From IMG/VR virus record IMGVR_UViG_3300046171_000182, positions 1 through 64,000 of that record: 64,000 bases of DNA; one strand, given 5' to 3'. Shown piece by piece: positions 1,286 to 45,103 of the stretch; position 1 is the stretch's first letter, and each line of letters begins with the position of its first letter. This DNA comes from a virus. The notes under the pieces were generated by a model that saw only the letters and a list, made by a program, of their open reading frames with translations, did no database searches and was not told where the DNA came from. The position numbers and the translations under genes are program-made.

Positions 1286-1286
1286 C

Positions 1287-2336: not shown

Positions 2337-2349
2337 TGAAAGGTATATT

Positions 2350-5193: not shown

Positions 5194-5207
5194 CCTAGAG
5201 TGTTCAA

Positions 5208-5559: not shown

Positions 5560-5575
5560 CTTTAAGGAATTCCAC

Positions 5576-8500
5576 ATGAAGGTTGTTGTTGGTCAAAACA
5601 CGATCGTTAAAAAAATTACTGTTGGAACTCCACTGCGGGTGGGATCGGCAGCAAACGGTAGTTTAACTGGACTCGATGATGTTAACGGTTCCGTTAATCT
5701 CGCCAACGGTACAATTTTACAATATGACAGTAATTCAGGAAAATTTATTCATGTAAGTGCAGCTGATATAACAGGCAGCGGTCTTAATGTTAATGATGCA
5801 GGTGGATTAGGTTCACTTGTATATGATTCAGCAAATTCAATTATACAATACACTGGACCATCTGCTGATAGTGTTCAGTCACTATTCAATGCTACATATG
5901 ATTCAAGTGCTTTAGGTTCTCTATTATATTCTAATGGAACAATTAATCTCAATGGTCCAACAGCTGCTCAGATACGGGCTCTGTTTAGCGCTGGTAATGA
6001 TTTACAATATAATCAAGCAACAGGTGAATTCTCTGTAACAATTCCTCCAGGTGGTGGAGCAATTGGTGACGGAGGTCAAGCATTAAGTGTTAACACATCT
6101 GGCGATTATGGTTCATTATCATACGATGGTGCTAATGCTGTACTAACGCATGTGGGAACAAATGATTCAGATATTCGTGGATCAATTTCAGTTGGTGGTG
6201 ATCTTTCTTACGATCAATCAACTGGTACAATAACATATAATAAAAGAACAGATGCCGATATTAGATCACTTTTTAGTGGTGGTGGAGATCTAACATATAA
6301 TAGTACAACTGGTAATTTTAGTATTACAACCGGAGCACATTATCAAGATTCTGATGCTCGTCAGGTTTTCTCTGTTAATTTTATTGGTGATACTGCTTTC
6401 GATAGTAGCCCATATGGCGGTGCTTCATATAATTCTGCAACTGGCGTACTTACGATTAATGGTACAACAGATTCTAATATACGTAATTCTATAAGCCTTC
6501 AAGATTCTGGTGGCTTAGGGTCATTAACATACGATCCTAAAGAAGGTAAATTTGTATATAAAGGGCCTGAGCTTGCCGATATATCTTCTCTGCTCTCAGT
6601 TAATGAAGGTCCGACTTCATTAGGCGATCTATCTCTTGATTCTGCAACTGGAGCGATTAGATTTCAATTAGATGAAGATAGTATTAGAAGTTTAATAACT
6701 CTTGTATCTGATAATGAAGGTGGTACACATTTATCATACGACCATTCAACTGGTGTAATTACTTACAGAGGTCCAAGTACTTTAGAAGTACGCGATCTGA
6801 TATCTGTTGATTCAACAGCTAATACTGGCGATGGTTCACTTACATATCATGAATCATCTGGCGTGTTTACATATATTGGCCCAAGTCCTGCCGAAGTAAG
6901 AGCCCACTTCGAAGGTGGACTTGGAATTGATTATAACGAAGCTACCGGTACATTTAGACTAGATAGTACTGCAAATATTGTAACCGGTAGTATTGTTACA
7001 GGCAATTTAAGAGTAACAGATTCAGCTACGATTGAAGATGCCACAATAAATCAAACGTTAAACGTTGAAAATATTAATTCATTAGATCCTAATGGTGATA
7101 TTAATATTACTGCAGGTGATGATATTGACATCACTGCGCCAGATAAAATAAAATTAAATACTCCGCTTTTAATAACCTCATCTAAAACCCTTAACATTAG
7201 AGATTATGATAGTGATGCAGCTTCTCTTAACGGTAGTGGGATTGTTATTGGCGGTGGATCTAACCAAAAAAGTATTTTCTATCAGCAAAGTACTGAGCAG
7301 TTTGTAATAGGCGCAAATACAGGATTAGATATTACCGGACCTTTAACTGGTACTACTATTGATTCGTTAAATAAGCGTATAGACGAGTTACCTGATTCTG
7401 CTCAGATGAAAGGCATTCTATCTGCCGGTCCTGGTTTATCTTATGATAATGTCAATGGTATATACAGAATTACATCTTCAGGCGTCGTTGCTGGAACTTA
7501 CGGCGATGCAACTAATGTTCCAAGATTTGCTGTAGACTCATTAGGACAAATTGATAGTATTGGGTTAATTCCAATATCAACAGTTAATAACTTTCAGTTT
7601 GACTCTACAAGTGGTAATCTCAAGATTACAACTGCTACCGATAGTTATAATGTTGGCTTTACATTAGATCCATATTCAACAGTAAACCTAGTTGAAGATC
7701 CTAATGCTACTCCTAATACAGGAACAATGTATTATACAGATGCAAGAGTTGATTCAAACTTAGCATCAAGTAGATCAAGTCCAATTGTTCGTACTGGTGA
7801 CATTACCGGTGTAACATTAAATGCGACCGGGCCTACATCAGCTGGCGATAACGCTGCAATAGGTTACACATCATCTGGTGGTTTGATACTTACTGGTCAA
7901 GGTAGTGGTTACGATGTAACAATTAAGAATGATGCTGACAGTGATGTACTACGAGTTCCAACAGGATCAAAAGAAGTACAGCTAACAGGATTCTTATCAG
8001 GTCCACAAGAGTTTATAATCGATCCAGCAGCAGTTGGTGATAACACTGGTACTGTTAAGATCCTTGGTAACCTTCAAGTTGAAGGTACTCAAACGATTAT
8101 TAACTCTACAACAATAACTCTTAATGATAAGAACATTGTTATTGCTGATAGTGCTGCTGACTCTTCTGCGCTAGATGGATCTGGGATTACTTTCGGTGGT
8201 ACTAATGTTGTAGACAATCCGTCATTCCAGTACTCTCATGCCGACGAAAGATTTGTATTTAATAGAGATATTCAGGCTAATAGATTCTATGGTGCCTTCT
8301 CTGGACAAATTACATCTATTGGAAATCATACTACTGCGGATTTAGCAGAAGATTCATTTGCCACAGTATCAAGTGGTACAATGTACTTCACTCAAGCAAG
8401 AGCTCGTTCCTCAATCAACTTTGTTGATGCGGGTGGTGATGGATCTTTTGTTTACGATTCTGCAAGTGGAACAATGACATACACTGGACCAAGTCCAGTA

Positions 8501-9088
8501 GAAACTAGAGCACACTTCCAAGTCAATGATACTGGTGGAGACGGTTCATTAGGTTATGATTCCGCAAGTGGTAAGTTCACATATGTTGGTCCATCTCCTG
8601 CAGAAACTAGAGCACATCTAAATGTTCTTGATGCTGGTGGCGACGGCAGTTTCACATATGATTCTGCAACTGGTAAGTTTACTTACACAGGTCCTTCGCC
8701 GGCTGAAGCAAGAGCACACTTTCAAGTAAACGATACCGGTGGGGATGGATCTCTTGGATATGATTCTGCAACTGGTAAGATAACATACACAGGACCTTCT
8801 GAAGCTGAGTGGTATCAACATTTTGTAGATAACGCAGATAGCTTTGGTGATATGATTTGGGATTCAAGTTATGGAACCAAAGGTGGTCTGTCATTACATC
8901 AACGTCACATAATAAAACATCAAGAGGCGTTTGCTGACTCATTTATTAATTCGCAAGAATACTTCTTGTACTATAGTGGCACATTAGGTGGATTAAGAAA
9001 GGTTAGTGCAGATACACTCTCCGCAAGAATTGGCGGTGCTGGTGGTGGCGGAGCTGGCGGCGGACTGTTAAGTTATGTCAATCTCTAA
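5576..9088 (+). CDS. Long tail fibre protein with many degenerate repeats
   Basis: The 1170-residue protein has a good ribosome-binding site (TAAGGAATT) before ATG 5576. It is built largely of repeats of about 30-37 residues following the pattern 'GGxGSLxYDSATGxFTYxGPS.AE.RAHF', degenerate in the N-terminal 460 residues and nearly identical in residues 950-1084. A non-repetitive middle (about 460-945) contains segments like 'DSATIEDATINQTLNV' and 'NLQVEGTQTIINSTTITL', a trimeric fibre-type beta motif. The tail ends in a Gly-rich linker. No enzymatic domain is visible. It is expected to be a host-recognition fibre shaft expressed late. Confidence 0.75.
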   Translation: MKVVVGQNTIVKKITVGTPLRVGSAANGSLTGLDDVNGSVNLANGTILQYDSNSGKFIHVSAADITGSGLNVNDAGGLGSLVYDSANSIIQYTGPSADSVQSLFNATYDSSALGSLLYSNGTINLNGPTAAQIRALFSAGNDLQYNQATGEFSVTIPPGGGAIGDGGQALSVNTSGDYGSLSYDGANAVLTHVGTNDSDIRGSISVGGDLSYDQSTGTITYNKRTDADIRSLFSGGGDLTYNSTTGNFSITTGAHYQDSDARQVFSVNFIGDTAFDSSPYGGASYNSATGVLTINGTTDSNIRNSISLQDSGGLGSLTYDPKEGKFVYKGPELADISSLLSVNEGPTSLGDLSLDSATGAIRFQLDEDSIRSLITLVSDNEGGTHLSYDHSTGVITYRGPSTLEVRDLISVDSTANTGDGSLTYHESSGVFTYIGPSPAEVRAHFEGGLGIDYNEATGTFRLDSTANIVTGSIVTGNLRVTDSATIEDATINQTLNVENINSLDPNGDINITAGDDIDITAPDKIKLNTPLLITSSKTLNIRDYDSDAASLNGSGIVIGGGSNQKSIFYQQSTEQFVIGANTGLDITGPLTGTTIDSLNKRIDELPDSAQMKGILSAGPGLSYDNVNGIYRITSSGVVAGTYGDATNVPRFAVDSLGQIDSIGLIPISTVNNFQFDSTSGNLKITTATDSYNVGFTLDPYSTVNLVEDPNATPNTGTMYYTDARVDSNLASSRSSPIVRTGDITGVTLNATGPTSAGDNAAIGYTSSGGLILTGQGSGYDVTIKNDADSDVLRVPTGSKEVQLTGFLSGPQEFIIDPAAVGDNTGTVKILGNLQVEGTQTIINSTTITLNDKNIVIADSAADSSALDGSGITFGGTNVVDNPSFQYSHADERFVFNRDIQANRFYGAFSGQITSIGNHTTADLAEDSFATVSSGTMYFTQARARSSINFVDAGGDGSFVYDSASGTMTYTGPSPVETRAHFQVNDTGGDGSLGYDSASGKFTYVGPSPAETRAHLNVLDAGGDGSFTYDSATGKFTYTGPSPAEARAHFQVNDTGGDGSLGYDSATGKITYTGPSEAEWYQHFVDNADSFGDMIWDSSYGTKGGLSLHQRHIIKHQEAFADSFINSQEYFLYYSGTLGGLRKVSADTLSARIGGAGGGGAGGGLLSYVNL
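8420..8827 (+). repeat. Four tandem 34-residue (about 102 bp) coding repeats
   Basis: Within the fibre gene, four copies of 'D.GGDGS..YDSA.GK.TY.GPS.AE.RAHF' follow each other at intervals of 99-102 bases, beginning at about 8423, 8522, 8624 and 8726. Copies 2 and 4 (VNDTGGDGSLGYDS) are more alike than 1 and 3, implying duplication of a two-repeat block. Such repeats can change fibre length by recombination. Confidence 0.75.
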
Positions 9089-9099
9089 GTAACAAAACA

Positions 9100-9107
9100 T
9101 ATAAATA
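9100..9107 (+). promoter_or_regulatory. T4-type late promoter box TATAAATA
   Basis: An exact TATAAATA lies in the gap after the long fibre gene and 30 bases before the next ATG at 9138. It would drive the two small genes and probably the large fibre gene downstream. Confidence 0.75.
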
Positions 9108-9137
9108 AAGAATAACTAATTTAAAAAGATATAGAAC

Positions 9138-9476
9138 ATGGCAGCAACATTTCATACTAGCTTTCAACATAATGTGGGTAAAACTACACATACCTTGTAT
9201 ACGGCTCCAACAGGATTGACAGGACGTCATCTTGTTGTTAGTTGTGTTGCTACAAATATATTTGGTTCCGCTTTACCAATAACCGTAAAGTTAGTTAGAG
9301 GAGCAACCGAAGTATTCTTAGCTTATAATAAAAGAATTTTAGCTAATGATACTGTAGATCTTCTTATAAATAACTCTAAGATCATGATAGAGGAATATGA
9401 TGAAATTCACACATCGGCTCCCGCTGACAATGCTTTCAGTATAATCATGACAATGGTAGAGGAAGTTGAAACATGA
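9138..9476 (+). CDS. Small virion structural protein, unknown
   Basis: The 112-residue protein, following a late promoter, is beta-rich with no charge clusters or membrane segments (VGKTTHTLYTAPTGLTGRH..). A similar opening, 'TLYTAP.G....', recurs at the N-terminus of the 14002 fibre protein as 'LVYTVPAGKSLVGSLF', suggesting a shared small beta domain used in tail-tip proteins. It overlaps the next gene by 4 bases (ATGA). Confidence 0.55.
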   Translation: MAATFHTSFQHNVGKTTHTLYTAPTGLTGRHLVVSCVATNIFGSALPITVKLVRGATEVFLAYNKRILANDTVDLLINNSKIMIEEYDEIHTSAPADNAFSIIMTMVEEVET

Positions 9477-9751
9477 GTGGTAGCGATAACGGTGTTTATG
9501 GACATGATAATCAAGGTGGTATCTATGAAGGTACCGCGTATCATGATAAAACATTCTACGGTTTTAAACTAAGTCCAGAAACTGGAGATTGTACTGTAGA
9601 TGTTATTCGAAGCGATGATAGCGATGCTATCATTCTACCTCAACCAGATAATATTGGCGGCGACGATTATAAAGCGCATCTCTTTAGCATGGATGCAATA
9701 GATTTTGAATTTAACCATAGTACTGGCCATTTAAAGATGAAATTTCTCTAA
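9473..9751 (+). CDS. Small acidic structural protein, unknown
   Basis: This 92-residue protein starts at an ATG overlapping the upstream TGA. It is acidic and Gly/Asp-rich at the N-terminus, with a predicted beta-rich remainder (KLSPETGDCTVDVIRSDDSD). It lies between fibre genes and is probably a minor fibre or attachment protein. No family was recognised. Confidence 0.5.
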   Translation: MSGSDNGVYGHDNQGGIYEGTAYHDKTFYGFKLSPETGDCTVDVIRSDDSDAIILPQPDNIGGDDYKAHLFSMDAIDFEFNHSTGHLKMKFL

Positions 9752-9783
9752 TAAATAGCAGTATAGTAATATAGGATCGACAG

Positions 9784-11598
9784 ATGGCAACTATTATAGA
9801 CCTCGGTAAGTTAAGATTTCATTTTGCAGGTGAGTGGAATTCCGGCACCACATATGAAATTAACGACATCGTAAAGTACGGTGGTAACGTATACGTTTAT
9901 AGTAACATAGCAAGGACAAATGGTAACTTACCAACCGACCCTGAATATTGGGCATTGATGGTTGAAGGGTTTAAGTTTAGATCAGACTGGGATGGTGCAA
10001 CACAATATCGTGTTGGTGATGGTATTGCGCATGGTGGTGTTATATACATTGCTGTTGCAGATTCGCAAAACCAAGTTCCACCTAACGCAACATATTGGAG
10101 TCAGTTTGCTGATGGTATCCAATGGGAAGGTGAGTGGGCTAATACTAGTGTTTATCAAGCAAGTGATGTTGTAAAGTACGGCGCTCAAGCATATATCGCT
10201 AAACAAGATGTCCCGGTTGGAACCGATCCTACCAACGCTACATATTGGGAAACATTTGTAAGTGGTATCAGTGCTGAAGGCGTATGGAATGTCGGTACAG
10301 ATTATGTCCCTGGAGACTTAGTTGCATACGGTGCAAACATATATCGTTGTATCGCTAACACTACAGCTAACATTCCAACCAATACCACCTACTTTGAATT
10401 ATTTCAAACCGGGAATGACTTTCAGGGTGTCTGGTCAGCAGCTACTAGCTATCTAATTGGACAAACTGTTCGTTACGGTGGTAATGTATATAAAGCTAAA
10501 CAAGATAATCTTGCTTCTACTCCAGACACCTTTACCAATGCTTGGGAAATCTTTACAACTGGAGTAAACAACAGAGGTAATTGGACATCTACTACTCAGT
10601 ATCATATAAATGACGTTGTTGCTCATGGTGGTAACACATACATTTCTCTTATCTCTCACACAGCTGGTGTGTTTGACACAGACTTAGCAGCTGGTAAATG
10701 GCAAAAATTTAATAGTGGTGTACGCTATATGGGTGCCTGGACTTCAGGTACTCAATATTTAAAAGATGACATTGTTAGTGAAAGTGTTAGTACGTACATT
10801 GCAAATCAAGATCACACTGCAGGCGCAGACTTCTTTATTGATTTTAATACGAATAATTATTGGAATAACTTTGTGGTTGGTGCTAGCTATGTGCTTCCAG
10901 CAACAGCAGGAAATGCAGGTAAATATCTACAAACACCAGATGGAACAAACTATAGTTGGCAGTTTGCAGGTGCTAATGATAAAATCTTTTATGTGGCAGA
11001 AGATCCAACAAGTTCTGCAGATGATTCAGATCACGGTGCAACAGTAGACTTTGCTTTTGCAAGTGTAAGATTTGCTTGTGATTACATCAACTCAGATCTC
11101 GCAAACAGAACGCCTGCTACTATCTTTATTAAAGACGGTGTATATAACGAACAACTTCCAATCCATATTCCGGCCGAGGTAACTATTGTAGGTGACGGAC
11201 AACGTAACTGTGTTATTCAACCAGATACAACTACAGACATTGGTTTTGGTGCTGGTATATCTGGTGATGGTACAACACCAAATAACGAACAAACAATGTT
11301 CTTTGTGAACAGTGGTACAATGATTCTAGGTTTAAACTTAAAAGGTTTAACAGGATTTTCTTTAGGATCAACAACACCTACAGATCCTAACGATGCAACT
11401 ATCAAAGGTGTCTACTTTAGATTAGAACCAGGTGCTACGATTCTTAAATCACCATATATCAAAGAATCAAGCGCGTTCTCTTCAGGCGGTGTTGGCGCAA
11501 TTGTTGACGGTTCCTGTTGTCAACAGCGGTCTTCCTGGTTCAATGGTTTTCCATACATACACGCAAGTGCACGATGGAGGTATTGGTTTCTGGATTAA
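9784..11598 (+). CDS. Giant tail fibre/adhesin, N-terminal part (frameshifted gene, continues at 11516-13981)
   Basis: From ATG 9784 the product begins with seven modules of about 50 residues following 'W.s.t.Y..gDiV.yGg.vY.a......t..YW..f..G' (residues about 9-375). These resemble the carbohydrate-binding CBM5/12-type fold used in phage adhesins. Next comes a linker 'GKYLQTPDGTNYSWQ' and the start of a beta-helix-like region ('ATIFIKDGVYNEQLPIHIP'). At 11512-11515 one extra base (TTCCTG for expected TTCTG or similar) throws the frame; the last residues from about 'CCQQRSSWF' on are out-of-frame. With the base removed, it joins the second half to make a protein of about 1398 residues. Confidence 0.7.
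   Translation: MATIIDLGKLRFHFAGEWNSGTTYEINDIVKYGGNVYVYSNIARTNGNLPTDPEYWALMVEGFKFRSDWDGATQYRVGDGIAHGGVIYIAVADSQNQVPPNATYWSQFADGIQWEGEWANTSVYQASDVVKYGAQAYIAKQDVPVGTDPTNATYWETFVSGISAEGVWNVGTDYVPGDLVAYGANIYRCIANTTANIPTNTTYFELFQTGNDFQGVWSAATSYLIGQTVRYGGNVYKAKQDNLASTPDTFTNAWEIFTTGVNNRGNWTSTTQYHINDVVAHGGNTYISLISHTAGVFDTDLAAGKWQKFNSGVRYMGAWTSGTQYLKDDIVSESVSTYIANQDHTAGADFFIDFNTNNYWNNFVVGASYVLPATAGNAGKYLQTPDGTNYSWQFAGANDKIFYVAEDPTSSADDSDHGATVDFAFASVRFACDYINSDLANRTPATIFIKDGVYNEQLPIHIPAEVTIVGDGQRNCVIQPDTTTDIGFGAGISGDGTTPNNEQTMFFVNSGTMILGLNLKGLTGFSLGSTTPTDPNDATIKGVYFRLEPGATILKSPYIKESSAFSSGGVGAIVDGSCCQQRSSWFNGFPYIHASARWRYWFLD
9811..10890 (+). repeat. Seven coding modules of about 50 residues (CBM5/12-like)
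   Basis: The encoded modules each open with a Trp (GEWNSGTTY, SDWDGATQY, GEWANTSVY, GVWNVGTDY, GVWSAATSY, GNWTSTTQY, GAWTSGTQY) and close with 'YW..f..G'. DNA-level identity is moderate, so these are diverged repeats rather than a recent expansion. They probably bind surface glycan in a row. Confidence 0.7.
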
Positions 11599-13981
11599 AG
11601 ATAACGGTCTTGCTGAGATTGTATCTTGCTTTACTTACTATTGTGATATGGGATTTGTATCAAGTGGTGGTGGTAAAATTCGTGCGCTAAACTGTAACAA
11701 CAGTTACGGAACGTATGGTACTATCAGTACAGGTTACGATAGTGACGAACTTCCAGTAAATGGTTACATGTATGGTGATACACTAACATATGATCCTTCA
11801 TCGCTAACATCTTCTGACGGATTTACGGTTGGTGATACTATTACAGGTCCGGCAAAGACTGGTAGTAGAGTTGTAACAGATATGAGTATTGCTACTCAAG
11901 CTGTTATTACTACTAAGTTAGATGCTACCGTATCAGCTGTCACACAAGCAAGCCCAGGACAAGTTACAACTTCAGCTGCTCATGGATTTGAAACCGGTCA
12001 AAGTATTAAGTTTACCGGTGTGGGTGGTATGACAGAATTAAATGGTAATAGTTATACTATTACCGTAGTAGATACAACAAACTTTACAATTGGTGCTGAT
12101 ACCACAGGATTTGCATCTTTCACATCAGGTGGTACAGCCACTCTCGGTGGAGCTCACGGTCTATCAGACGGTGATATGATTTCATTTAGTAATGTTGGTG
12201 AAACAGCATGGCAAACACTTCTAGGTGATTATGCAGCTGCCGATAAACGAGCTTGGTATGCAGATATACAAGATAGTAACTCGTTTAAGCTAGCTTCAAA
12301 CTATGACTTAACTAACTATTTTGATACGAGATCAGAAGCTGGTTGGGGTTTTGTCATTGTAAACTTCACAGATGCTACACGATCTAATCCAGTTCGAGTA
12401 ACCGCACCAAGTCATGGATTTTCTTCAGGCGATCAAATGACTGAAGTCAAAGATGTTGTAGGTATGACCGAACTAAACGGTAATAACTATTATGTTAGCG
12501 TAATTAATGCAAACACAATAGATCTTTACTCAGACGCTGGATTAACAACTGCTGTTAATGGTGTTGGCTATAATTCTTACACATCTGGTGGTAATGGTAC
12601 AAGAACACTAACAGGTACATCACTAACTGCGTGTGATTTTAGAGTTGATGATGCTTTAGTTGCAACAGTTAAAAACATTCAGACAAACCTAGTAACTAAC
12701 CACAGACTAATTATATCAGATCAAAAACGAGGTCTATCAGGACAAACAATTAAAGTCAATGTTGGTCCCCCAGAATATTTGGGAACAGGGAACAGATTCT
12801 ACTTTAACGGTCAAATTAATCTAGCGTTTAATGGCTATGATGAACGTCAATATATCTTTGAGCAGAACGATGCATCAAATGTTGGGCATCCAATGTATCT
12901 TGCTGATACCGCAAACTCAACTGGCGGCGCTAATGCATGGTCAACTGGTGTAAGTTATTATTTAGATGGACAGCCAGTAGCTGACTTAGCAGCTTATGTT
13001 TCAGGATTTGCAGCAGCTACTGCTAGAGAAGTAAGATTCAAGATTGCTGCAGGACAAAGTGGATCATTACCATCAGTCTATATGTGCTGCCATACTCATG
13101 CAAATATGGGTGATGGACAGTTATATATAAATGCAGCAAGTGCAACTGAAAAAGAAAGATTTATTGGTAACCATCCAGTATTCTATCCATTCTCCGTCGG
13201 AGATTCGATTGATGCTCAAGATGCTCAGGGTGCAGTTCTTGCTGGAAATGGAAACTTAGGTCAATTCGGTTTCTCACTTTCTTTAGGGGGATTAAAAGAA
13301 GAGCCAAGAGCAGGTGGTAGTATCCAGTTTACTACTGGACCATCATATGACAGTGATAACTCAACTTATCTAAGTAATCCAAGATTAGGTGAAGATGATC
13401 GTAGTTATATTATCACATCAGTAAGTGGATATGACTCAAGTAATGATCCGAGAGTTGGTGGTACAGCCACTCTAACACTGAGCCAAGAAAAATTAAATAC
13501 TGACCCAGCATATTATGGTCAGCACTTTAACATTAGATATAACTACTCACAAGTTCGTATGACAGGTCACGACTTCTTGAGTATTGGTACAGGTGGTAAA
13601 TCAACTACTAACTATCCAGGTGAACCAACTCAAGCAGCTGCACAAGGTAACGAAGTTACAGAGACACTTCCAGGTCGTGTTTATTATGCAAGTACAGACC
13701 AAGATGGTAACTTTAGAGTTGGTAACTTCTTTAGAATTGATCAGGCAACTGGTCGAGCTACATTGGATGCAAGTGCATTTGATCTCTCTGGTTTGACATC
13801 ATTGAGACTTGGTTCAATTGGTGCTCAGTTAGGTGAAAATATTAATGAGTTTAGTGCTGATGGCACTCTATCCGGAAACAGCAACACGGCTGTTCCAACA
13901 GAACAAGCAGTTAAGACATATGTAGATAATAGACCCGCGGCCATCTCGGCGTCTAAAGTTACCTTTATAGGAACATTTTAA
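11432..13981 (+). CDS. Giant tail fibre/adhesin, C-terminal part (same gene as 9784, after frameshift)
   Basis: The frame is open from 11432, but genuine coding in this frame begins at about 11516, where 'VVNSGLPGSMVFHTY' follows on from 'GVGAIVDGS' of the preceding frame. The region encodes a right-handed beta-helix-like segment, two copies of a beta domain with 'HGF..GQ.I.F..V.GMTELNGN.Y.I.V.....F' (about 12000 and 12420), and a C-terminal phage fibre end 'TAVPTEQAVKTYVDNR', a pattern common at fibre C-termini. There is no independent ribosome-binding site, so this is not a separate gene. Confidence 0.7.
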   Translation: MLRFLNHHISKNQARSLQAVLAQLLTVPVVNSGLPGSMVFHTYTQVHDGGIGFWIKDNGLAEIVSCFTYYCDMGFVSSGGGKIRALNCNNSYGTYGTISTGYDSDELPVNGYMYGDTLTYDPSSLTSSDGFTVGDTITGPAKTGSRVVTDMSIATQAVITTKLDATVSAVTQASPGQVTTSAAHGFETGQSIKFTGVGGMTELNGNSYTITVVDTTNFTIGADTTGFASFTSGGTATLGGAHGLSDGDMISFSNVGETAWQTLLGDYAAADKRAWYADIQDSNSFKLASNYDLTNYFDTRSEAGWGFVIVNFTDATRSNPVRVTAPSHGFSSGDQMTEVKDVVGMTELNGNNYYVSVINANTIDLYSDAGLTTAVNGVGYNSYTSGGNGTRTLTGTSLTACDFRVDDALVATVKNIQTNLVTNHRLIISDQKRGLSGQTIKVNVGPPEYLGTGNRFYFNGQINLAFNGYDERQYIFEQNDASNVGHPMYLADTANSTGGANAWSTGVSYYLDGQPVADLAAYVSGFAAATAREVRFKIAAGQSGSLPSVYMCCHTHANMGDGQLYINAASATEKERFIGNHPVFYPFSVGDSIDAQDAQGAVLAGNGNLGQFGFSLSLGGLKEEPRAGGSIQFTTGPSYDSDNSTYLSNPRLGEDDRSYIITSVSGYDSSNDPRVGGTATLTLSQEKLNTDPAYYGQHFNIRYNYSQVRMTGHDFLSIGTGGKSTTNYPGEPTQAAAQGNEVTETLPGRVYYASTDQDGNFRVGNFFRIDQATGRATLDASAFDLSGLTSLRLGSIGAQLGENINEFSADGTLSGNSNTAVPTEQAVKTYVDNRPAAISASKVTFIGTF

Positions 13982-16933: not shown

Positions 16934-17464
16934 ATGGCACTTAGAGATCATATAAAAGAAAATCATGATCTTGCAGAAAATCACCCCTTTGTAAAACTTT
17001 TGTTTTCGGGGGGTGTTTCCTCAAAAATTTATGCTGAGTATTTGTTTAATCAATACTTAATGTATAATGTGTTAGAAAAAATTGCTTTAGAACAAGGCTT
17101 GTTAGAAGGTGTAGAAGACGTAATAAGAGCAAAATTAATATTAGAAGACTTTATAGAATTAAAAGAAACAGATATTAAAGTTCATGATTGTTCGTTAGAC
17201 TACATTAAATATATACAAACAAAAGTATCTAAAGACAATTTAATGGCACACATTTATGTGCGGCACTTTGGCGATTTATTTGGTGGACAAATGATGAAAA
17301 AAGTTGTTGTAGGCTCCGGTAAGATGTATGATTTTAAAAATAGATCAGAACTTATTCAAGAGCTAAGAAGTCGATTAGATGATGGTTTAGCAGACGAAGC
17401 TAATACAGTTATGCTTTGGGCAATTGAATTATTTCACGCTTTGGAAAAACGATTTGATCTTTGA
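16934..17464 (+). CDS. ho1: Heme oxygenase (biliverdin-forming)
   Basis: The 176-residue protein matches heme oxygenase: 'HDLAENHPFVK' near residues 11-21 aligns with the proximal-histidine segment (H-x-x-AEN-x-x-F) giving His11 as heme ligand, and 'HFGDLFGGQ' at 111-119 is the distal-helix GDLSGGQ-type signature. The enzyme opens heme to biliverdin IXalpha, CO and iron using reduced ferredoxin. It is slightly shorter than bacterial HOs (about 200-240). The downstream bilin reductase overlaps it, so biliverdin is presumably passed on. This is an auxiliary metabolic gene; known phage homologues occur in cyanophages and in uncultured marine phages. Confidence 0.85.
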   Translation: MALRDHIKENHDLAENHPFVKLLFSGGVSSKIYAEYLFNQYLMYNVLEKIALEQGLLEGVEDVIRAKLILEDFIELKETDIKVHDCSLDYIKYIQTKVSKDNLMAHIYVRHFGDLFGGQMMKKVVVGSGKMYDFKNRSELIQELRSRLDDGLADEANTVMLWAIELFHALEKRFDL

Positions 17465-18104
17465 AAAACTTGTGAACACTAGTGAAAAAATGAGAGAGCT
17501 TTTAGAATCTCTTTCTACTACTAAACACACCCACGATTTCCCCTGGCCTGCAACTACATACTATTCTCCTGACATTTGGCGTAGGGCCGACTTAGATATT
17601 ATTGATGCACGAGAAGATCGCAAATTGTGGATGATGCATTTGTGTGTCTATCCACATGTTAACGATCCTGCGCCGATTTACGGTTTTGATATTATTGCAG
17701 GACCAAATAAAGTAACCGGAGCATTTCACGACTTTAGTCCTATCGATCCTAACAGTCACATATTATCACAATTCAAAGAGAATGTACACAGTTTTATTCC
17801 ATCAAAGAAAAGAGAACTACCTGACTGGGCAAAGGCTATATTCAGCGGTTCTATGGTTTCAGCTGGAAATGTTAGAGATCCTGACGAACTACAAGAACTA
17901 TTAGATCTTGCTGTCAATAATTTAGAATACTTTGTAAATAATATAGGTCTTAGCACTGACAACGACTATACAGATAAACATAATTGGTACGCAATCAATC
18001 AGAAGAAGAATCCACATACTCCAAGAGTAATGGAAAATATGGGTGTAGCTCCTGATGTGGTTAGGAAATATATAGACGAATGCTTATTTCCTGAGATAAG
18101 CTAA
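17454..18104 (+). CDS. pcyX: Ferredoxin-dependent bilin reductase, PcyX/PebS-like (phycoerythrobilin synthase)
   Basis: The sequence aligns with the PcyA family: 'MHLCVYPHVNDPAPIYGFDIIAGP' corresponds to PcyA around His88-Asp105 (His62 and Asp79 counting from TTG 17454, same 17-residue spacing), and near the end 'NPHTPRVMENMG' matches the K-N-x-x-T-R-R-V-L helix. PcyA Glu76, needed for exovinyl reduction to phycocyanobilin, is not conserved (a hydrophobic residue at that spacing), as expected for enzymes yielding phycoerythrobilin. TTG 17454 has GGA 8 bases upstream and overlaps ho1; ATG 17490 is the alternative, and TTG 17424 the longest. PcyX proteins were described from uncultured marine phages thought to infect alphaproteobacteria. 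It converges with the minus-strand carbamoyltransferase, ends overlapping by 21 bases. Confidence 0.8.
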   Translation: MIFEKLVNTSEKMRELLESLSTTKHTHDFPWPATTYYSPDIWRRADLDIIDAREDRKLWMMHLCVYPHVNDPAPIYGFDIIAGPNKVTGAFHDFSPIDPNSHILSQFKENVHSFIPSKKRELPDWAKAIFSGSMVSAGNVRDPDELQELLDLAVNNLEYFVNNIGLSTDNDYTDKHNWYAINQKKNPHTPRVMENMGVAPDVVRKYIDECLFPEIS

Positions 18105-18986
18105 CACTGCTCCTTCTGCTGATCCAGTGTCACTTGGGTTTGGCGGAATGTATAAGTTATCCCATGTTTTACCAACTAGCTTTGGCATTGACTTGTTAAA
18201 AGCAACGCCTCCGCTTATAACTAGATTTTTACTAGTTGTAATTTCCCTTGCATATCTTAATATGTAAGTTACGCATTGTTCAAATATTCCTCTTGTTGCA
18301 CTTGCTATTTCTTTATTGCCTTTACCCCACCACATTCCTCGTGCACCACGATGAAAGTTTATTTTAAATTTAGGCATAGGTTCCCATTTTTTTATTATAT
18401 CGATTTCAATATGGGTTCTTAGTAAAGAAAATGGTGTAAATGAATGTGACAGTTCTTCAAACTTTGCTTCATCTTGCTGCGGCTTTAATCCTACACGATC
18501 TGTCATAGCAGAATAAAATAATCCTAGGCTATGAGGATATTTTGAAGACTTTAGTTTTTTAAGTTTACCGTTTTCTGCTTTCCATATCGTAGTACAATCA
18601 AACTCTCCTATACTATCAAAGACAACTACTGTTGCATCTTTAAAACCGCTTTTATAAAAAGCCGCAGCATGAGATTCGTGATGACCGACATATTTCCATT
18701 TGCAGTTTATATTAAGATCTCGTAAGTATCTTTTAACGTTATTTCTTTTAAAAGGATTTTTTTGTCCTGCGAGAAATTGTCTAATTGCTTTTAAGTAAGG
18801 ATTTTCATACCAAATAACTAAATCCGGTTTCCCGCTTTTGTTAGCTTCCTCTATACATTCTAATGTATGTCTTGGGCCTTTACCTGAAATAGTATTTACA
18901 AGTTTAAATCTATTTCCTAAGTTATTATCTTTAAAGATAGCTACAGACCAATCATGCCCGTTCTTTGACATACCCCATATTGTCAT
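18084..18986 (-). CDS. Carbamoyltransferase (NodU/CmcH/TobZ family)
   Basis: The 300-residue minus-strand product has the family's ASKHA-type features: 'GHHESHAAAFYKSGF' near residues 101-115 (the HHxxHA metal/carbamoyl-phosphate motif), 'ATVVVFDSIGEFDCTTI' (phosphate-binding strand-loop), and a C-terminal 'NLVISGGVAFNKSMP' with 'PPNPSDTGSAEGA' matching the adenylate-binding end. Such enzymes carbamoylate a hydroxyl on a sugar or secondary metabolite. It lacks the extra C-terminal domain of TobZ/NodU, as phage versions often do. It overlaps the cupin gene (ATGA) and forms a two-gene minus-strand operon. Confidence 0.8.
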   Translation of the reverse strand: MTIWGMSKNGHDWSVAIFKDNNLGNRFKLVNTISGKGPRHTLECIEEANKSGKPDLVIWYENPYLKAIRQFLAGQKNPFKRNNVKRYLRDLNINCKWKYVGHHESHAAAFYKSGFKDATVVVFDSIGEFDCTTIWKAENGKLKKLKSSKYPHSLGLFYSAMTDRVGLKPQQDEAKFEELSHSFTPFSLLRTHIEIDIIKKWEPMPKFKINFHRGARGMWWGKGNKEIASATRGIFEQCVTYILRYAREITTSKNLVISGGVAFNKSMPKLVGKTWDNLYIPPNPSDTGSAEGAVLAYLRK

Positions 18987-39931: not shown

Positions 39932-40134
39932 TGAAAGAATTTGTATTAGTAATTAGCATGTGGGGTAATAATGGCACCGCATGGGAATATATAGGTAATC
40001 AATATGTGATGAATGAAAAATTTACAGAAGCTCAATGCGAGATTCTAGTAGATAATTCTAATTGGAAAAAGCATATAATAAACGAATACTATAAATTACA
40101 ATTTAATTGTTTTCACGAGGACGACCATAACTAA
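39931..40134 (+). CDS. Small protein after gp44, unknown
   Basis: The 67-residue protein overlaps the gp44 stop (TAATG) and the next ATG. Sequence 'KEFVLVISMWGNNGTAWEYI' and 'EKFTEAQCEILVDNSNWKK' suggests a compact alpha/beta protein ending in an acidic/His tail. Similar short genes occur in marine T4-like phages; function is unknown. Confidence 0.6.
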   Translation: MKEFVLVISMWGNNGTAWEYIGNQYVMNEKFTEAQCEILVDNSNWKKHIINEYYKLQFNCFHEDDHN

Positions 40135-41174
40135 TGTTAGTATTATATACGCAACCTAGATGTCACTATTGTGAGATCATGAAAAGGATGCTGAGTAAAA
40201 TGGACGAGGTCGAAGGCTTTCAAACCTTAGACATTACTAAAGATCCTGAAGCTAGAGCCTTTCTAAAAAAGAAAGGTCACAAAACCGTTCCTATGCTTTA
40301 TTTGAAAGTGCCTGATCACGAGATATGGATTAATAAAGATATTGATACTAGAAAGCTAACCGGTGAAAACTTAGGTAAAAGAATAACAGATGCTATAGCA
40401 CAGACAAAAAAGGATAACTGTCTAGTATTTGATGTTGATGGTACGTTAACACCAAGTAGAGAAAAGATTGATCCTGCACATGCAGAAATAATAATGGATC
40501 TTGCTAGTAAGGTCGACGTTTACCTTATAACAGGATCAGACTTTCCAAAAACAAAAGAACAATTAGGCGACATTACTAAAGTTGTAAAAGGTTCCTATCA
40601 ATGTGCAGGCAATGAATTATGGGTAAATGATAAGTTAGTTCAATCTGTTCCTGAATTTAATATGTCTAAAGTAATGGTACAATGGTGTAAGCAAAAACTA
40701 GAAGAAAGTAGATTTCCACACAGAACCGGCAAGAAGCATATTGACCTTCGTCCAGGTATGATGAACTTTTCTATTCTAGGTAGAGGCTGTACTAAGGCTC
40801 AAAGAAAACAATACATTGATTATGACACAAAAAATAATGAGAGAGAAGTTTTAGCAAGCGAGTTTAATTCAATATTCCATACATACTCTGCTCAAATAGC
40901 TGGAGAAACAGGTATCGACGTGTGCGAACGAGGAAGAGATAAAGGACAGGTGTACAAACCGCTAGAAACATTGTATAATAGTATTATCTTCTTTGGCGAT
41001 GATACGCAAGAAGGTGGGAACGATTATCCGTTTGCCAAGCAAATAGAAGGATTCCCGCATCGATGTTTTCATGTCAGCGGACCGGAAGAAACATTTGAAT
41101 CTCTAGAAGGCATTAAAAGATTATTCATTGACTCTTGGCCTGGTCAAGACGGTGGAATAGAAGGACAGCTATGA
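40134..41174 (+). CDS. Glutaredoxin-phosphomannomutase (eukaryotic-type PMM) fusion
   Basis: Residues 1-90 form a glutaredoxin/thioredoxin-fold domain: 'MLVLYTQPRCHYCEIMKRML' with redox pair Cys10/Cys13 and the cis-proline loop 'KTVPML' (51-56). Residues about 94-330 are a HAD phosphatase-fold domain of the eukaryotic PMM1/PMM2 type: 'LVFDVDGTLTPSREKI' (Asp100 nucleophile, Asp102), 'LITGSDFPKTKEQLG', 'CAGNELWVND', 'HIDLRPGMMNFSILGRGCT', 'ERGRDKGQVY' and 'FFGDDTQEGGNDYPFA'. It would interconvert mannose-6-P and mannose-1-P. The frame is continuous, and it sits between gp44 and gp62 with overlaps. I know of no standard protein with this fusion. Confidence 0.8.
   Translation: MLVLYTQPRCHYCEIMKRMLSKMDEVEGFQTLDITKDPEARAFLKKKGHKTVPMLYLKVPDHEIWINKDIDTRKLTGENLGKRITDAIAQTKKDNCLVFDVDGTLTPSREKIDPAHAEIIMDLASKVDVYLITGSDFPKTKEQLGDITKVVKGSYQCAGNELWVNDKLVQSVPEFNMSKVMVQWCKQKLEESRFPHRTGKKHIDLRPGMMNFSILGRGCTKAQRKQYIDYDTKNNEREVLASEFNSIFHTYSAQIAGETGIDVCERGRDKGQVYKPLETLYNSIIFFGDDTQEGGNDYPFAKQIEGFPHRCFHVSGPEETFESLEGIKRLFIDSWPGQDGGIEGQL
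40951..40979 (+). promoter_or_regulatory. Internal sigma70-like promoter (TGTACA-17-TATAAT)
   Basis: Inside the PMM domain, TGTACA is followed after exactly 17 bases by TATAAT. It lacks the TGTG extension (spacer ends ACATTG) but matches both hexamers and could supply gp62-regA separately from the fusion gene, whose ATGs lie about 190 and 560 bases downstream. Confidence 0.5.
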
Positions 41175-41948: not shown

Positions 41949-42128
41949 ATGGCCGAAAACCTATATGTAACTCCTTGTGTTGGGATCTGTACTTTAGATC
42001 CTGACACTAGGATGTGCATTGCGTGCAAGCGTACTAGTGAAGAAATAACTTGCTGGATAAAATATACGCATGATGAACGCATGGCTATTATGAATAGACT
42101 AGGTTACGGAAAAAGACGTAAAAAATGA
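41949..42128 (+). CDS. DUF1289 family small Cys-rich protein
   Basis: A 59-residue frame from ATG 41949 to TGA 42126-42128 reads 'TPCVGICTLDPDTRMCIACK' then 'RTSEEITCWIKYTHDERMAI', an exact DUF1289 pattern (P-C-x-x-x-C, C-x-x-C, R-T-x-x-E-I-x-x-W). The four cysteines probably bind zinc or an iron-sulphur cluster. The family is common in proteobacteria. It follows regA after 3 bases and ends in a basic tail 'YGKRRKK'. Confidence 0.75.
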   Translation: MAENLYVTPCVGICTLDPDTRMCIACKRTSEEITCWIKYTHDERMAIMNRLGYGKRRKK

Positions 42129-42163: not shown

Positions 42164-42171
42164 TATAAATA
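42164..42171 (+). promoter_or_regulatory. T4-type late promoter box TATAAATA before hsp20
   Basis: An exact TATAAATA lies 58 bases before the Hsp20 ATG. A TTGACA hexamer at 42146-42151 also occurs upstream, within 'TGTACATTTGACA', so dual early and late transcription is possible, although the spacing from TTGACA to a -10 is not ideal. Confidence 0.7.
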
Positions 42172-42229: not shown

Positions 42230-42703
42230 ATGACAGGCGTACACACACTTTTCCCACGTTCATCTTTCGTAGGGTTTGACCATTTATTCAATGAACTTGA
42301 ATGGACAGCAAAACACTCGAACGATCATTATCCACCCCATAACATTATTAGAGCCACAGAAACAGATTATCTGATTGAATTGGCTATTGCTGGGTTTACA
42401 AAAGATGAAATAACTGTAGAAGTTAAAGATAGAACTTTGACTGTTACAGGGGAACATGTTTCTAAAGGTAGAGAGTTTATCCATCGTGGCATTTCGACAA
42501 AGAAATTTAAGCGTACTTTTAGGCTGTCCGAACACGTAAACGTAAACGGAGCAGATATTCAGGATGGCATCTTGGCAATTGAATTGCAATATGTTATTCC
42601 AGAAGAAATGCGTCCTCGTAAAATTAATATTGGAAAATTTAACGAGGTCGAACATGACACAAGCAATACTAACGGCACACAGCTACTCAACGAGGGCAGT
42701 TGA
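42230..42703 (+). CDS. hsp20: Small heat shock protein Hsp20
   Basis: ATG 42230 follows a strong AAAAGGAG site. The 157-residue protein has an N-terminal 'FDHLFNELEWTAKHSN', an alpha-crystallin domain ('NIIRATETDYLIELAIAGF', 'DEITVEVKDRTLTVTGE', 'FKRTFRLSEHVNVNGADIQ', 'GILAIELQYVIPEEMRPR') and an I-x-I-like tail. It prevents aggregation of unfolded proteins and resembles IbpA. Hsp20 is a signature gene of marine T4-like phages and may chaperone virion assembly. Confidence 0.9.
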   Translation: MTGVHTLFPRSSFVGFDHLFNELEWTAKHSNDHYPPHNIIRATETDYLIELAIAGFTKDEITVEVKDRTLTVTGEHVSKGREFIHRGISTKKFKRTFRLSEHVNVNGADIQDGILAIELQYVIPEEMRPRKINIGKFNEVEHDTSNTNGTQLLNEGS

Positions 42704-42908
42704 ACTAATCATGGACGCAATCAAAAGCGTCTACAACGCACGGATTGAGCGGAAAGCGATTCGGGAAACTGAAAAAGCTCTAAGCAGTCTATCTGATTAT
42801 GACTTAGCAGACATTGGCATTAGCCGCGGCGAGATCTATGAGATCGCTAGGTATAAATCGTCTATTGAACACGTCAAAGTAAATCAAAATTTGCAAGGAT
42901 GGGTTTAA
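42654..42908 (+). CDS. DUF1127-domain protein
   Basis: ATG 42654 gives 84 residues overlapping the end of hsp20. The segment 'ETEKALSSLSDYDLADIGIS' followed by 'RGEIYEIAR' is the DUF1127 (YjiS-like) motif L-x-x-L-s-d-x-x-L-x-D-I-G-l-x-R-x-x-I. The family is widespread in alphaproteobacteria, where small DUF1127 proteins affect phosphate and carbon metabolism and RNA interactions. Here it heads a block of host-like genes. Confidence 0.8.
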   Translation: MTQAILTAHSYSTRAVELIMDAIKSVYNARIERKAIRETEKALSSLSDYDLADIGISRGEIYEIARYKSSIEHVKVNQNLQGWV

Positions 42909-43081
42909 TGACAACAGCAGTAATGTCTACTATATTCTCGCCCTTATCGGGTTTGTGGTCCTCTATCGATCGTTTTACCCAAGTGGTGGGATATTCGAGA
43001 GCGGCAGCGGAACTCGCAAGGCTTGGGTATCAAGAGGAAGCGAAAGCGTGCATGATGCAGGTTACAAAATTGCGTAACTAA
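42908..43081 (+). CDS. Small host-like protein, partner of DUF1127 gene
   Basis: ATG 42908 overlaps the upstream stop (TAATG). The 57-residue product has a hydrophobic start and 'GYSRAAAELARLGYQEEAKA', a helical motif seen in small alphaproteobacterial proteins alongside DUF1127. Function is unknown. No transmembrane segment is clear. Confidence 0.55.
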   Translation: MTTAVMSTIFSPLSGLWSSIDRFTQVVGYSRAAAELARLGYQEEAKACMMQVTKLRN

Positions 43082-43109
43082 AATATATAGAACAATAGCC
43101 AGAGGTGAT

Positions 43110-43517
43110 ATGATAAAAAACATTGTAAATAAAATTCCAGAATTTTGTATGAGTCATTGGCTTTTTCGTATTCCATTGGCTATTGTTTTTCTACAGCAAG
43201 GCTTTACTAAATTGCCAGTAACAATAGAAGGTGCAGAAAGTTTTGACTTGCCTTACATTGTGTGGTGGTTTGTAGCATACGGTGAGATCGGTGCTGGTAT
43301 CGGCTTGCTTGTAGGCGGAGCCATTATATGGCAGAAGCTAAAAGAAATTAATGATATTATAACTCGGTTCAGCGGTATTACAATTTGTAGTATTATGACA
43401 GGAGTTATATGGGTAGGTCAACCAGAAAGTTTCTGGGATGTTATCTTATATGATAACTTCCATGTGTTTCTTTGGGTTGGCGGTTTATATTTTGCACTGA
43501 GAGGTAATAGAACATGA
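43110..43517 (+). CDS. DoxX-like integral membrane protein
   Basis: The 135-residue protein has four likely membrane helices: 'LFRIPLAIVFLQQGFTKL', 'IVWWFVAYGEIGAGIGLLVG', 'SGITICSIMTGVIWVG' and 'FHVFLWVGGLYFAL'. The 'R.pla..fl.qG..Kl' first helix and 'geigagigLl.G' second helix match the DoxX/DoxD-like quinol-associated superfamily. It may act in the cytoplasmic membrane in redox metabolism. It overlaps the next gene (ATGA). Confidence 0.6.
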   Translation: MIKNIVNKIPEFCMSHWLFRIPLAIVFLQQGFTKLPVTIEGAESFDLPYIVWWFVAYGEIGAGIGLLVGGAIIWQKLKEINDIITRFSGITICSIMTGVIWVGQPESFWDVILYDNFHVFLWVGGLYFALRGNRT

Positions 43518-43714
43518 GAGAGCAACTAATTAAGGCAGTTAGAATGCACGCAGAAGGTGAGCTAGAGCGGGCTAAAACTAATTTTGAGGTCTACTTAAAT
43601 CATCCTGTAGGCATTGGTGAACATAGCGATATTGTTGAAGCTATGCAGAAAGAGCTAAGTACTATGGGTCACGCATCCGAACGATTAGAAATGCTAGCTA
43701 AGCATTTTGAATAA
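43514..43714 (+). CDS. Small helical protein, unknown
   Basis: The 66-residue hydrophilic helical protein ('REQLIKAVRMHAEGELERAK', 'DIVEAMQKELSTMGHASERL') starts at an ATG overlapping the DoxX-like stop and its own stop overlaps the next ATG (TAATG). It is probably cytoplasmic. Family not recognised. Confidence 0.6.
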   Translation: MREQLIKAVRMHAEGELERAKTNFEVYLNHPVGIGEHSDIVEAMQKELSTMGHASERLEMLAKHFE

Positions 43715-43869
43715 TGAGCGAGAACTATTGTACTACTAAAGGGCTAGGATGGGCCTTTCTAATTATTATTATTGGAATGGTAGGTATGCCTATTCTTGGG
43801 TCAGCGATTGCTTATCCAGACAACTGTAAGCAGTCCATTCTTATTCCATGCATAGGACTAGGTGAATAA
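43714..43869 (+). CDS. Small single-pass membrane protein
   Basis: A 51-residue frame from ATG 43714 ends at TAA 43867-43869, directly abutting the next ATG. It contains one hydrophobic helix 'GWAFLIIIIGMVGMPILGSA' and four cysteines in total, two of them in the C-terminal part ('DNCKQSILIPCIG'). Overlapping starts and stops support translation. It may be a subunit or anchor within the membrane/redox cluster. Confidence 0.6.
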   Translation: MSENYCTTKGLGWAFLIIIIGMVGMPILGSAIAYPDNCKQSILIPCIGLGE

Positions 43870-44061
43870 ATGCACTTTACTATTATTAATAATAGCACTG
43901 GTGAAACATTTGACATGGAATTTGATTCTCATGAACAGAAAGAAAAGTGGCTTGATCTATCCAAGGGGTTTAAATGCCTTGGTGAAGTACAAGGTGACTA
44001 TCTTCCAACTCGTCACGTGAGAATGAGAAACAAAGAGGACCACGCAGGATGGGGGAGTTAG
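43870..44061 (+). CDS. Small soluble protein, unknown
   Basis: The 63-residue protein 'MHFTIINNSTGETFDMEFDS' is soluble and charged, ending in a basic His/Arg-rich tail ('TRHVRMRNKEDHAGWG'). It abuts the previous stop and overlaps the next gene by 13 bases. Family not recognised. Confidence 0.55.
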   Translation: MHFTIINNSTGETFDMEFDSHEQKEKWLDLSKGFKCLGEVQGDYLPTRHVRMRNKEDHAGWGS

Positions 44062-44267
44062 ACCCAAGAGCAGAAGCTCAAGAAGAAGCTGAAGTAACAT
44101 TTGACGCTTTTATGTTATGGACAAAAAGAGTTACAATGTATGCTGCAATATTTCTTGGTATTGTTGTGTTTGGTTGTAATGCAGGAGTAGAAACTGGTAA
44201 AAATAAGACTGGCTCTCAATATAACGGAGAACAGTACGACCCATATAATTTAAATAAGGATAAGTAA
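44049..44267 (+). CDS. Cytochrome c oxidase aa3 subunit IV-like small membrane protein
   Basis: The 72-residue protein has an acidic N-terminus, then 'EVTFDAFMLWTKRVTMYAAI' followed by a membrane helix 'FLGIVVFGC'. The T-(y/f)-x-x-F-(i/m)-x-x-(t/w)-(t/k)-(k/w) pattern just before a single helix is the signature of the bacterial aa3-type cytochrome oxidase subunit IV family (COX4_pro_2). The C-terminus is a polar tail. The similarity rests on about 30 residues, so it is suggestive only. It overlaps genes on both sides. Confidence 0.5.
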   Translation: MGELDPRAEAQEEAEVTFDAFMLWTKRVTMYAAIFLGIVVFGCNAGVETGKNKTGSQYNGEQYDPYNLNKDK

Positions 44268-44593
44268 TGAATGGAAGTATAAAAGCATTTCCTCCTATGG
44301 CTTTGTGGATAGTAGCCAAGGAAGGGTGGAAGAGTATAATGACTATAGAGCATTCGCCTCTTCGTAAACTACCACCTCAACTCGGATTAATGGTATTTTT
44401 GATTCTGTCAGTTATGTGGAGTGGCATCTTTGCTGCTCTTATAAGCAACCCATACATATTTGGTTGGACAGCTGGCGGACATGTACTAGTTGTTTCCGGA
44501 ATTTTTATAACAGCAATTGTTCATCAACAGGCTGATAAGTATCCCACGCACATGAAGTATAGTGGAAGAAGCGCTAATGGTGAACACGAATAA
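44267..44593 (+). CDS. Membrane protein with two transmembrane helices, unknown
   Basis: The 108-residue protein has an amphipathic N-terminus ('PMALWIVAKEGWKSIMTIEH') and two hydrophobic helices ('LGLMVFLILSVMWSGIFAAL', 'GGHVLVVSGIFITAIVH'). A Trp/Gly/His-rich loop and a His pair near the second helix might hold a cofactor, but no family was recognised. It lies between the oxidase-like and pseudoazurin genes in the same overlapping run. Confidence 0.55.
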   Translation: MNGSIKAFPPMALWIVAKEGWKSIMTIEHSPLRKLPPQLGLMVFLILSVMWSGIFAALISNPYIFGWTAGGHVLVVSGIFITAIVHQQADKYPTHMKYSGRSANGEHE

Positions 44594-44602
44594 GGATAAG
44601 AT

Positions 44603-45034
44603 ATGAATAAAGCTCTAATATTTACTATGGTACTTACCTTTTTGAGTACTATGATTATATCAGCTGCTAACGCAGGAGATATTACTATTGAAATGTTGAA
44701 CAAACGTGATGATGGACAAAAGATGGTTTACTCGGCAGATATTGCTAGAGTAGAAGTAGGTACTACAATAACATGGATTCCGACGTCAAAAGGACATAAC
44801 GTAGAATTTATTGCTGGACCTGATGAATGGGATATGCCGAAGAAATCAAAGAACAATAAAGAAGTTTCTATTACCTTTGATGTTCCAGGCGTTTATGTAT
44901 ATCAATGTACGCCGCACGCAACAATGGGCATGATTGCTTTAGTTGTAGTTGGTGATGGTGATAATGACGTATCTAAAGCAAAGGTACGAGGAAAGTCTAA
45001 AAGAAAGCTAAAGGAACTTTTAAAGGAGCTGTAA
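44603..45034 (+). CDS. Pseudoazurin (periplasmic blue copper protein)
   Basis: The 143-residue protein has a signal peptide (residues 1-24, cleavage after 'SAANA'). The cupredoxin domain matches pseudoazurin: 'ITIEMLNKRDDGQKMVYSAD', 'SKGHNVEF' and 'YQCTPHATMGMIALVVVGD'. Type 1 copper ligands are His65, Cys102, His105 and Met110, with the exact spacing of pseudoazurins (C-x2-H-x4-M). It shuttles single electrons in the periplasm, for example to nitrite/nitrous oxide reductases or oxidases. A Lys-rich tail follows. This is a probable auxiliary metabolic gene. Confidence 0.9.
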   Translation: MNKALIFTMVLTFLSTMIISAANAGDITIEMLNKRDDGQKMVYSADIARVEVGTTITWIPTSKGHNVEFIAGPDEWDMPKKSKNNKEVSITFDVPGVYVYQCTPHATMGMIALVVVGDGDNDVSKAKVRGKSKRKLKELLKEL

Positions 45035-45082: not shown

Positions 45083-45103
45083 GGCGCTTCGGCGCCTTTT
45101 TTT
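45083..45103 (+). terminator. Intrinsic terminator before gp43
   Basis: GGCGC-TTCG-GCGCC makes a 5-bp GC stem with a UUCG loop followed by seven T's; flanking A's can extend the stem. It ends the hsp20-pseudoazurin transcript. Confidence 0.9.

Follow-up and report, generated by a model that had tools for sequence, protein, structure and literature searches.

What does a T4-like phage do with a blue copper protein set among a run of small membrane proteins? The question is raised by positions 42654-45034 (+ strand) of a 64,000-nucleotide stretch of DNA, here called the window, which covers positions 1 to 64,000 of the IMG/VR virus record IMGVR_UViG_3300046171_000182 (135,206 bases). Nine open reading frames (ORFs), g1 to g9, lie there between hsp20 and the gp43 polymerase gene. 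An earlier reading of the window, made from its letters only, had proposed that they form an auxiliary system acting on the electron flow of the host respiratory chain. The comparative analysis presented here suggests that the cassette is probably a phage-borne accessory module of the host cytochrome c oxidase branch, which would augment or re-route electron flow. The earlier proposal is thereby given a definite attachment, through an oxidase-bearing relative, the exchange of electron carriers and the neighbourhoods of cellular kin, except that one gene, g4 (43514..43714), is probably a passenger and not part of the module: its product is a general T4-like phage protein (phrog_1811, E 2e-27). 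The resemblance to quinol or oxidase proteins noted at the same time is likewise borne out on the oxidase side, as that of an accessory of the aa3 cytochrome c oxidase, and not for quinol oxidase.

The strongest tie to an oxidase is found in the viral contig IMGVR_UViG_3300027859_000890 (L282; 134,166 bases), in which coxB, ctaG and coxA lie directly upstream of the module and are followed, in order, by g8, g6, g7 and DoxX; after DoxX come four small genes and then pseudoazurin, 0.9 kilobases (kb) on. Its coxA and coxB products score above the NCBIfam cutoffs for cytochrome c oxidase subunit I (TIGR02891, 694.9 bits, cutoff 670.8) and subunit II (TIGR02866, 184.5 bits, cutoff 147.7), and ctaG, between the two, matches PF04442 at 1.5e-56. 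The functional motifs are intact, namely CSELCGKNH at the CuA site and GHPEVY, HHMY and HFHY in coxA. Because IMG/VR contigs can contain cellular stretches, the presence of phage genes and recurrence in a second metagenome were checked. L282 also holds genes for phage tail fibre, clamp loader and thymidylate synthase. From a second metagenome comes a contig whose coxA is 100% identical and whose gene neighbours agree up to DoxX, at which point the stretch read ends.

The second line of evidence is that the carrier itself is exchanged. In four lineages pseudoazurin is absent and a class I cytochrome c with signal peptide and CxxCH is found instead, directly beside DoxX in L309 and L312 and directly beside g8 in L211 and L216. 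None of the DoxX-bearing clusters has both cytochrome c and pseudoazurin, and this exclusivity holds in searches of whole records (L309, L318, L313, L211, L216 and L217). The exchange bears on a reading in which DoxX, g8, g5 and pseudoazurin supply copper or aid oxidase assembly, with electron transfer secondary. Pseudoazurin does bind copper, and ctaG, the CuB chaperone, stands between coxB and coxA in L282; however, since a haem cytochrome c without copper substitutes in four lineages, the slot appears to serve electron transfer, and a role centred on copper is quite unlikely. It has also to be considered that pseudoazurin could feed a host nitrite or nitrous oxide reductase at low oxygen. 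This role is already known for pseudoazurins, some SAR11 have a pseudoazurin located between nirK and cbb3 genes (PMC12816887), and a passage of PMC8115048 reports viral nirK and norB. In spite of this, the genes associated with the module are those of the aa3 cytochrome c oxidase, and no NirK-type multicopper oxidase was found in 16 module-bearing records, which makes a denitrification donor very unlikely.

Cellular relatives of the module genes point in the same direction as the phage contigs. The kin of DoxX adjoin sdhC in 5 of the 10 Rhodobacterales genomes with a match (L434, L437, L439, L440 and L441). Those of g8, found in 17 of 240 alphaproteobacterial genomes, adjoin cytochrome c in L249, L253, L255, L261 and L262, and the marine Rhodobacteraceae genome MED-G08 has a phage-like DoxX (1.4e-67) 7.8 kb from a pseudoazurin. 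Among the viral loci, a gene resembling alternative oxidase adjoins pseudoazurin in L079 and L080; it was matched to the alternative oxidase of the contig L532 (PF01786, 3.6e-68). A haem connection is also visible. Seven dereplicated loci have 5-aminolevulinate synthase genes at a distance of 0.8-5.7 kb from the module, and the window phage has adjacent genes for haem oxygenase (16934-17464) and ferredoxin-dependent bilin reductase (FDBR; 17424-18104). Phage tetrapyrrole genes of these three kinds have been described, and passages of PMC11480375 pair hemO and FDBR with viral 5-aminolevulinate synthase and suggest support of haem-containing respiratory enzymes; these passages concern the haem side only, and azurin is not mentioned in the paper.

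Other viral contigs with coxA (L532-L535) were dropped as support for the module, g3, g5, g7, g8 and g9 being absent from the stretches read. As observations in their own right, L532 (IMGVR_UViG_3300048036_000455) holds within 14 kb (20-13915) a 5-aminolevulinate-synthase-like gene, alternative oxidase, coxB, coxA, ctaG and the succinate dehydrogenase iron-sulfur subunit, and L533 (IMGVR_UViG_3300008963_000727, 194 kb) has coxA after a DUF2244 gene (7536-9560) and a haem oxygenase farther on. The stretch of L533 that was read lacks g3, g5, g7, g8 and g9; its one gene resembling the cassette is g2-like and lies about 4.4 kb upstream. In Phage C48C1 (L082), a gene annotated as hypothetical (3291-3842) has a match of 4.4e-74 to the alternative oxidase of L532.

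The genes recur as a set among ocean viruses. Searches of IMG/VR recovered pseudoazurin on 245 contigs, DoxX on 364, g8 on at least 467 and g7 on at least 544, many of these contigs being fragments. Two or more of g3, g5, g7, g8 and g9 occur in one run in 83 dereplicated clusters with 46 gene orders (clusters were formed across all seeds; counts per seed are indicative). Where flanks are full, 20 of the 21 DoxX genes near a pseudoazurin are no more than 2 kb away; with uniform placement over 8.5 kb such closeness has a probability of about 4e-12, the loci being partly non-independent. By comparison, a control seeded on the portal gene, covering 80 loci of close relatives (742 kb), contained no g1, g2, g3, g5, g6, g7, g8 or g9. 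Loss of the gene set among relatives, named beforehand as an outcome that would speak against the proposal, was thus not found (83 clusters against 0 of 80 control loci), nor does pseudoazurin stand alone among unrelated genes, for the set co-occurs across metagenomic phage contigs. The ratio of nonsynonymous to synonymous substitution rates (omega, dN/dS) is 0.02-0.18 wherever it was computable, for seven genes tested, indicating purifying selection. The same results bear on the proposal that these are unrelated morons that accumulated next to the polymerase gene, at a site prone to insertion. Although small AT-rich ORFs are commonplace in phages and the window copy occupies one slot, 76 of the 83 clusters were not seen in the hsp20-polymerase slot within the stretches available, and the many orders, the empty control and purifying selection all make such a gathering extremely improbable; the random reading was set aside after the co-occurrence test against the portal control. 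Flanked by phage genes, hsp20 and gp43 polymerase, and kept under purifying selection, the module qualifies as a group of auxiliary metabolic genes. Two other families were noticed close to it: a probable porin-like outer-membrane protein (L039 8527-9357 and relatives; cluster c2, 35 loci; no Pfam match), often a few kb from the module, and a small protein with a hydrophobic start and two conserved cysteines (L039 7526-7762 and relatives; family c0), adjoining it in 45 loci.

The carrier is encoded by g9 (44603..45034), a pseudoazurin, that is, a periplasmic type-1 copper electron carrier (PF00127 Copper-bind, 9e-16). The sequence-only reading had described a blue copper protein with a signal peptide and all four ligands, and these are present: H65, C102, H105 and M110 (His-Cys-His-Met), invariant in 29 relatives, behind a hydrophobic N-terminus with an ANA cleavage-like site that, by eye, predicts export. 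Pseudoazurin TIGR02375 is by far the best family (3e-28), and at 97.9 bits the match falls just below the equivalog cutoff of 109.85; the closest solved structures are also pseudoazurins. The fold family, signal peptide and ligands are shared, the position in the tree is within a mostly phage group, and by its score g9 is best called a divergent pseudoazurin-like cupredoxin. Comparison with host pseudoazurins, which the same reading had recommended, places the nearest chromosomal kin in marine Rhodobacteraceae (63-65% identical). In the tree, the grouping with Rhodobacteraceae has an approximate likelihood-ratio support (SH-aLRT) of 88 only. None of the chromosomal pseudoazurins examined has g3, g5, g7 or g8 beside it.

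The relationship of g7 (44049..44267) to subunit IV of the aa3 oxidase is more distant. The single sequence gives a weak COX4_pro_2 match (E 9.7e-4) at 19.7 bits, below the Pfam gathering cutoff of 22, and in this respect the profile check suggested at the outset fails for g7 itself. The homology is nevertheless upheld because 19 of 23 g7 relatives match COX4_pro_2 (best 1.1e-5), because the g7 profile found a single match in 190 alphaproteobacterial genomes, G036:C1:513314, a COX4_pro_2 gene in its own right, and because profile-profile comparison gives a probability of 96.5%. The phage protein differs in having an extra C-terminal tail. The corresponding check of g3 (43110..43517) succeeded directly: this DoxX-family membrane protein of four helices matches PF07681 (E 2.3e-7) at 31.8 bits, above the gathering cutoff of 23.6, and its AlphaFold2 (AF2) model is a four-helix membrane bundle (predicted local distance difference test, pLDDT, 81.7; predicted template modelling score, pTM, 0.73). 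Comparison of the g7, g8 and DoxX profiles with solved structures returned nothing meaningful.

A scheme can be proposed from these elements. Pseudoazurin would be exported, loaded with copper and deliver electrons to an aa3 oxidase at its CuA site; this oxidase would be the phage's own in the L282 lineage and the host's for the window phage, since the record of the latter has no coxA. In this scheme g7 would act like subunit IV, g8, g5 and g6 would be small accessory or assembly factors, DoxX would work on the quinone or assembly side, and g1, a DUF1127 protein, and g2 could tune host RNAs. The outcome would be that respiration and ATP supply are sustained or redirected while host gene expression collapses. 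The main rival to sustained respiration is a respiratory throttle, in which the membrane proteins bind the host oxidase and inhibit or divert it while the carrier drains off electrons, respiration being lowered or rival phages blocked as a result. Phage small membrane proteins are frequently inhibitors, and most module phages have accessory parts and no catalytic subunit. Against this, one lineage has intact coxA and coxB in a single gene run together with ctaG, an assembly factor, which fits the building of an oxidase, and two unrelated carriers keep their conserved metal ligands, with pseudoazurin under purifying selection; inhibition therefore seems unlikely.

Several observations weigh against the accessory-module interpretation. 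Only one lineage with coxA bears the module, and no coxA, class I cytochrome c or alternative oxidase was found in the 135-kb record of the window phage, which is possibly incomplete. The window phage is, in fact, a carrier of the accessory part only, without a complete phage-encoded cytochrome c oxidase. About 30 DoxX-bearing clusters have no carrier in the stretch read, some of them since the contigs end. Three of the proposed accessory proteins, g8, g5 and g6, are without functional annotation. To our knowledge, the DoxX family has no generally established function, and a fold search with the g3 model gave no significant match, a MauE-domain protein reaching a TM score of 0.64 but with an E of 1.3.

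The best-known electron-transport genes of phages are those of cyanophages, in which they keep photosynthesis going. The photosynthetic set, with petE plastocyanin and PTOX, resembles the module in that T4-like marine phages carry a small blue copper protein of the periplasm or lumen together with other electron-transport parts. In the module, by contrast, pseudoazurin or cytochrome c is the carrier, its partners belong to respiration and cellular kin are found in alphaproteobacteria. Among isolate phages, the phage cytochrome c has no match, and pseudoazurin gives only weak matches to petE, the nearest for a relative's pseudoazurin being a cyanophage plastocyanin (best E 1e-3). The cassette had not been recognised from described phages, and this impression agrees with a search of 50,697 phage records, which turned up no module of the kind and no match to DoxX or g7. 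The alphaproteobacterial aa3 operon (coxB, ctaG, coxA, COX4_pro_2) is the obvious cellular counterpart, with g7 related to its subunit IV and coxB-ctaG-coxA shared by L282, whereas the catalytic subunits are missing from most phages with the module. Among isolates, only the records of the OM43 methylophage Melnitz (EXVC039M) were found to contain any of the module genes tested, namely a g8 homologue with a GGEHE tail (2.8e-37). Unlike the module copies it is solitary, with no DoxX, g7 or pseudoazurin beside it; Melnitz being cultured, it offers an experimental handle. In the open-access literature (subscription journals were outside the scope), pseudoazurin, DoxX or cupredoxin were not found as phage auxiliary metabolic genes, and the module is probably new to the literature.

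More tentatively, it is possible that phages of marine alphaproteobacteria possess a respiratory branch of their own, modular in build and consisting of a swappable periplasmic carrier, dedicated membrane subunits so far found mainly in phages and, sometimes, the catalytic oxidase, so that an infected cell would respire via a partly viral cytochrome c oxidase. If this is true, a respiratory counterpart of the cyanophage genes is widespread in phages of heterotrophs, ocean viruses influence how much oxygen infected cells consume and how much energy they gain, and currently unnamed gene families gain testable functions.

The remaining small genes are mostly without a named family: profile searches including Pfam assigned none to g2, g5, g6 or g8. 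The first gene, g1 (42654..42908), encodes a small DUF1127 protein (PF06568, E 9.6e-9). Members of this family act as small regulators. The Rhodobacter protein CcaF1 is RNA-binding and promotes photosynthetic complexes (PMC10253847). Probably, g1 encodes a post-transcriptional regulator. It is followed by g2 (42908..43081), a protein of 57 amino acids with the conserved motif GYSRAAAELxRxGY that is kept in relatives (omega ~0.13), and both recur beside g9 in permuted contexts. A single-helix membrane protein of 51 amino acids with the motif NYCTTKGLGWAFL is encoded by g5 (43714..43869) and recurs adjoining g7 and g8. The 63-residue soluble protein g6 (43870..44061), with the tail LPTRHxRMxNKEEFAGWGS, recurs in the module (omega ~0.11), and g8 (44267..44593) is a two-helix membrane protein with a near-invariant GEHE C-terminus, whose predicted model was poor (pLDDT 66) and was not used.

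The setting is that of a T4-like phage, with PHROGs matches to portal, clamp loader, gp41 helicase and gp43 polymerase, the last sharing 56.5% identity with its counterpart in Phage C48C1 and ~49% with those of cyanomyophages. In C48C1 the hsp20-gp43 slot holds one 105-base ORF and one 801-base hypothetical gene. In the window, the upstream neighbour hsp20 (42230..42703, + strand; PF00011, E 1.4e-16) is a T4-like core gene outside the module, and the junctions among g1 to g9 are overlaps of 1-4 bases or slightly longer, plus short gaps. The nine genes originally placed between hsp20 and a terminator are all present, and the terminator is genuine: a strong intrinsic stem-loop, GGCGC-TTCG-GCGCC (45083..45096, + strand; folding z -3.25), followed by a T7 tract. 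Upstream of hsp20 and the cassette lies a T4-type late-promoter-like TATAAATA (42164..42171, + strand), a weak call. The window has 11 copies on the + strand (5.6 expected) and none on the - strand (4.1 expected), and in five other dereplicated loci a copy stands 41-68 bases upstream of hsp20. The total frequency is near chance, and only strand bias and position are suggestive; the placement upstream of hsp20 hints at late expression of the cassette.

No RNA family was found by an Rfam scan of the cassette region and no tRNA gene in the window; tRNA genes for Arg(TCT) and Met(CAT) lie outside it, at 73550-73707 of the record (G000; L442 9550-9707). Directly around the locus, a DUF1289 protein with conserved cysteines (PF06945, 9e-16) is encoded upstream of hsp20 at 41949-42128, and a single ORF at 40134-41174 fuses a glutaredoxin domain (PF00462, 1.6e-10) to a phosphomannomutase/HAD domain (PF03332, 9.7e-26). 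Farther away, at 18084-18986, a NolO-like carbamoyltransferase gene (phrog_1601, 2.3e-24) lies on the minus strand in a window that is otherwise mostly plus-strand.

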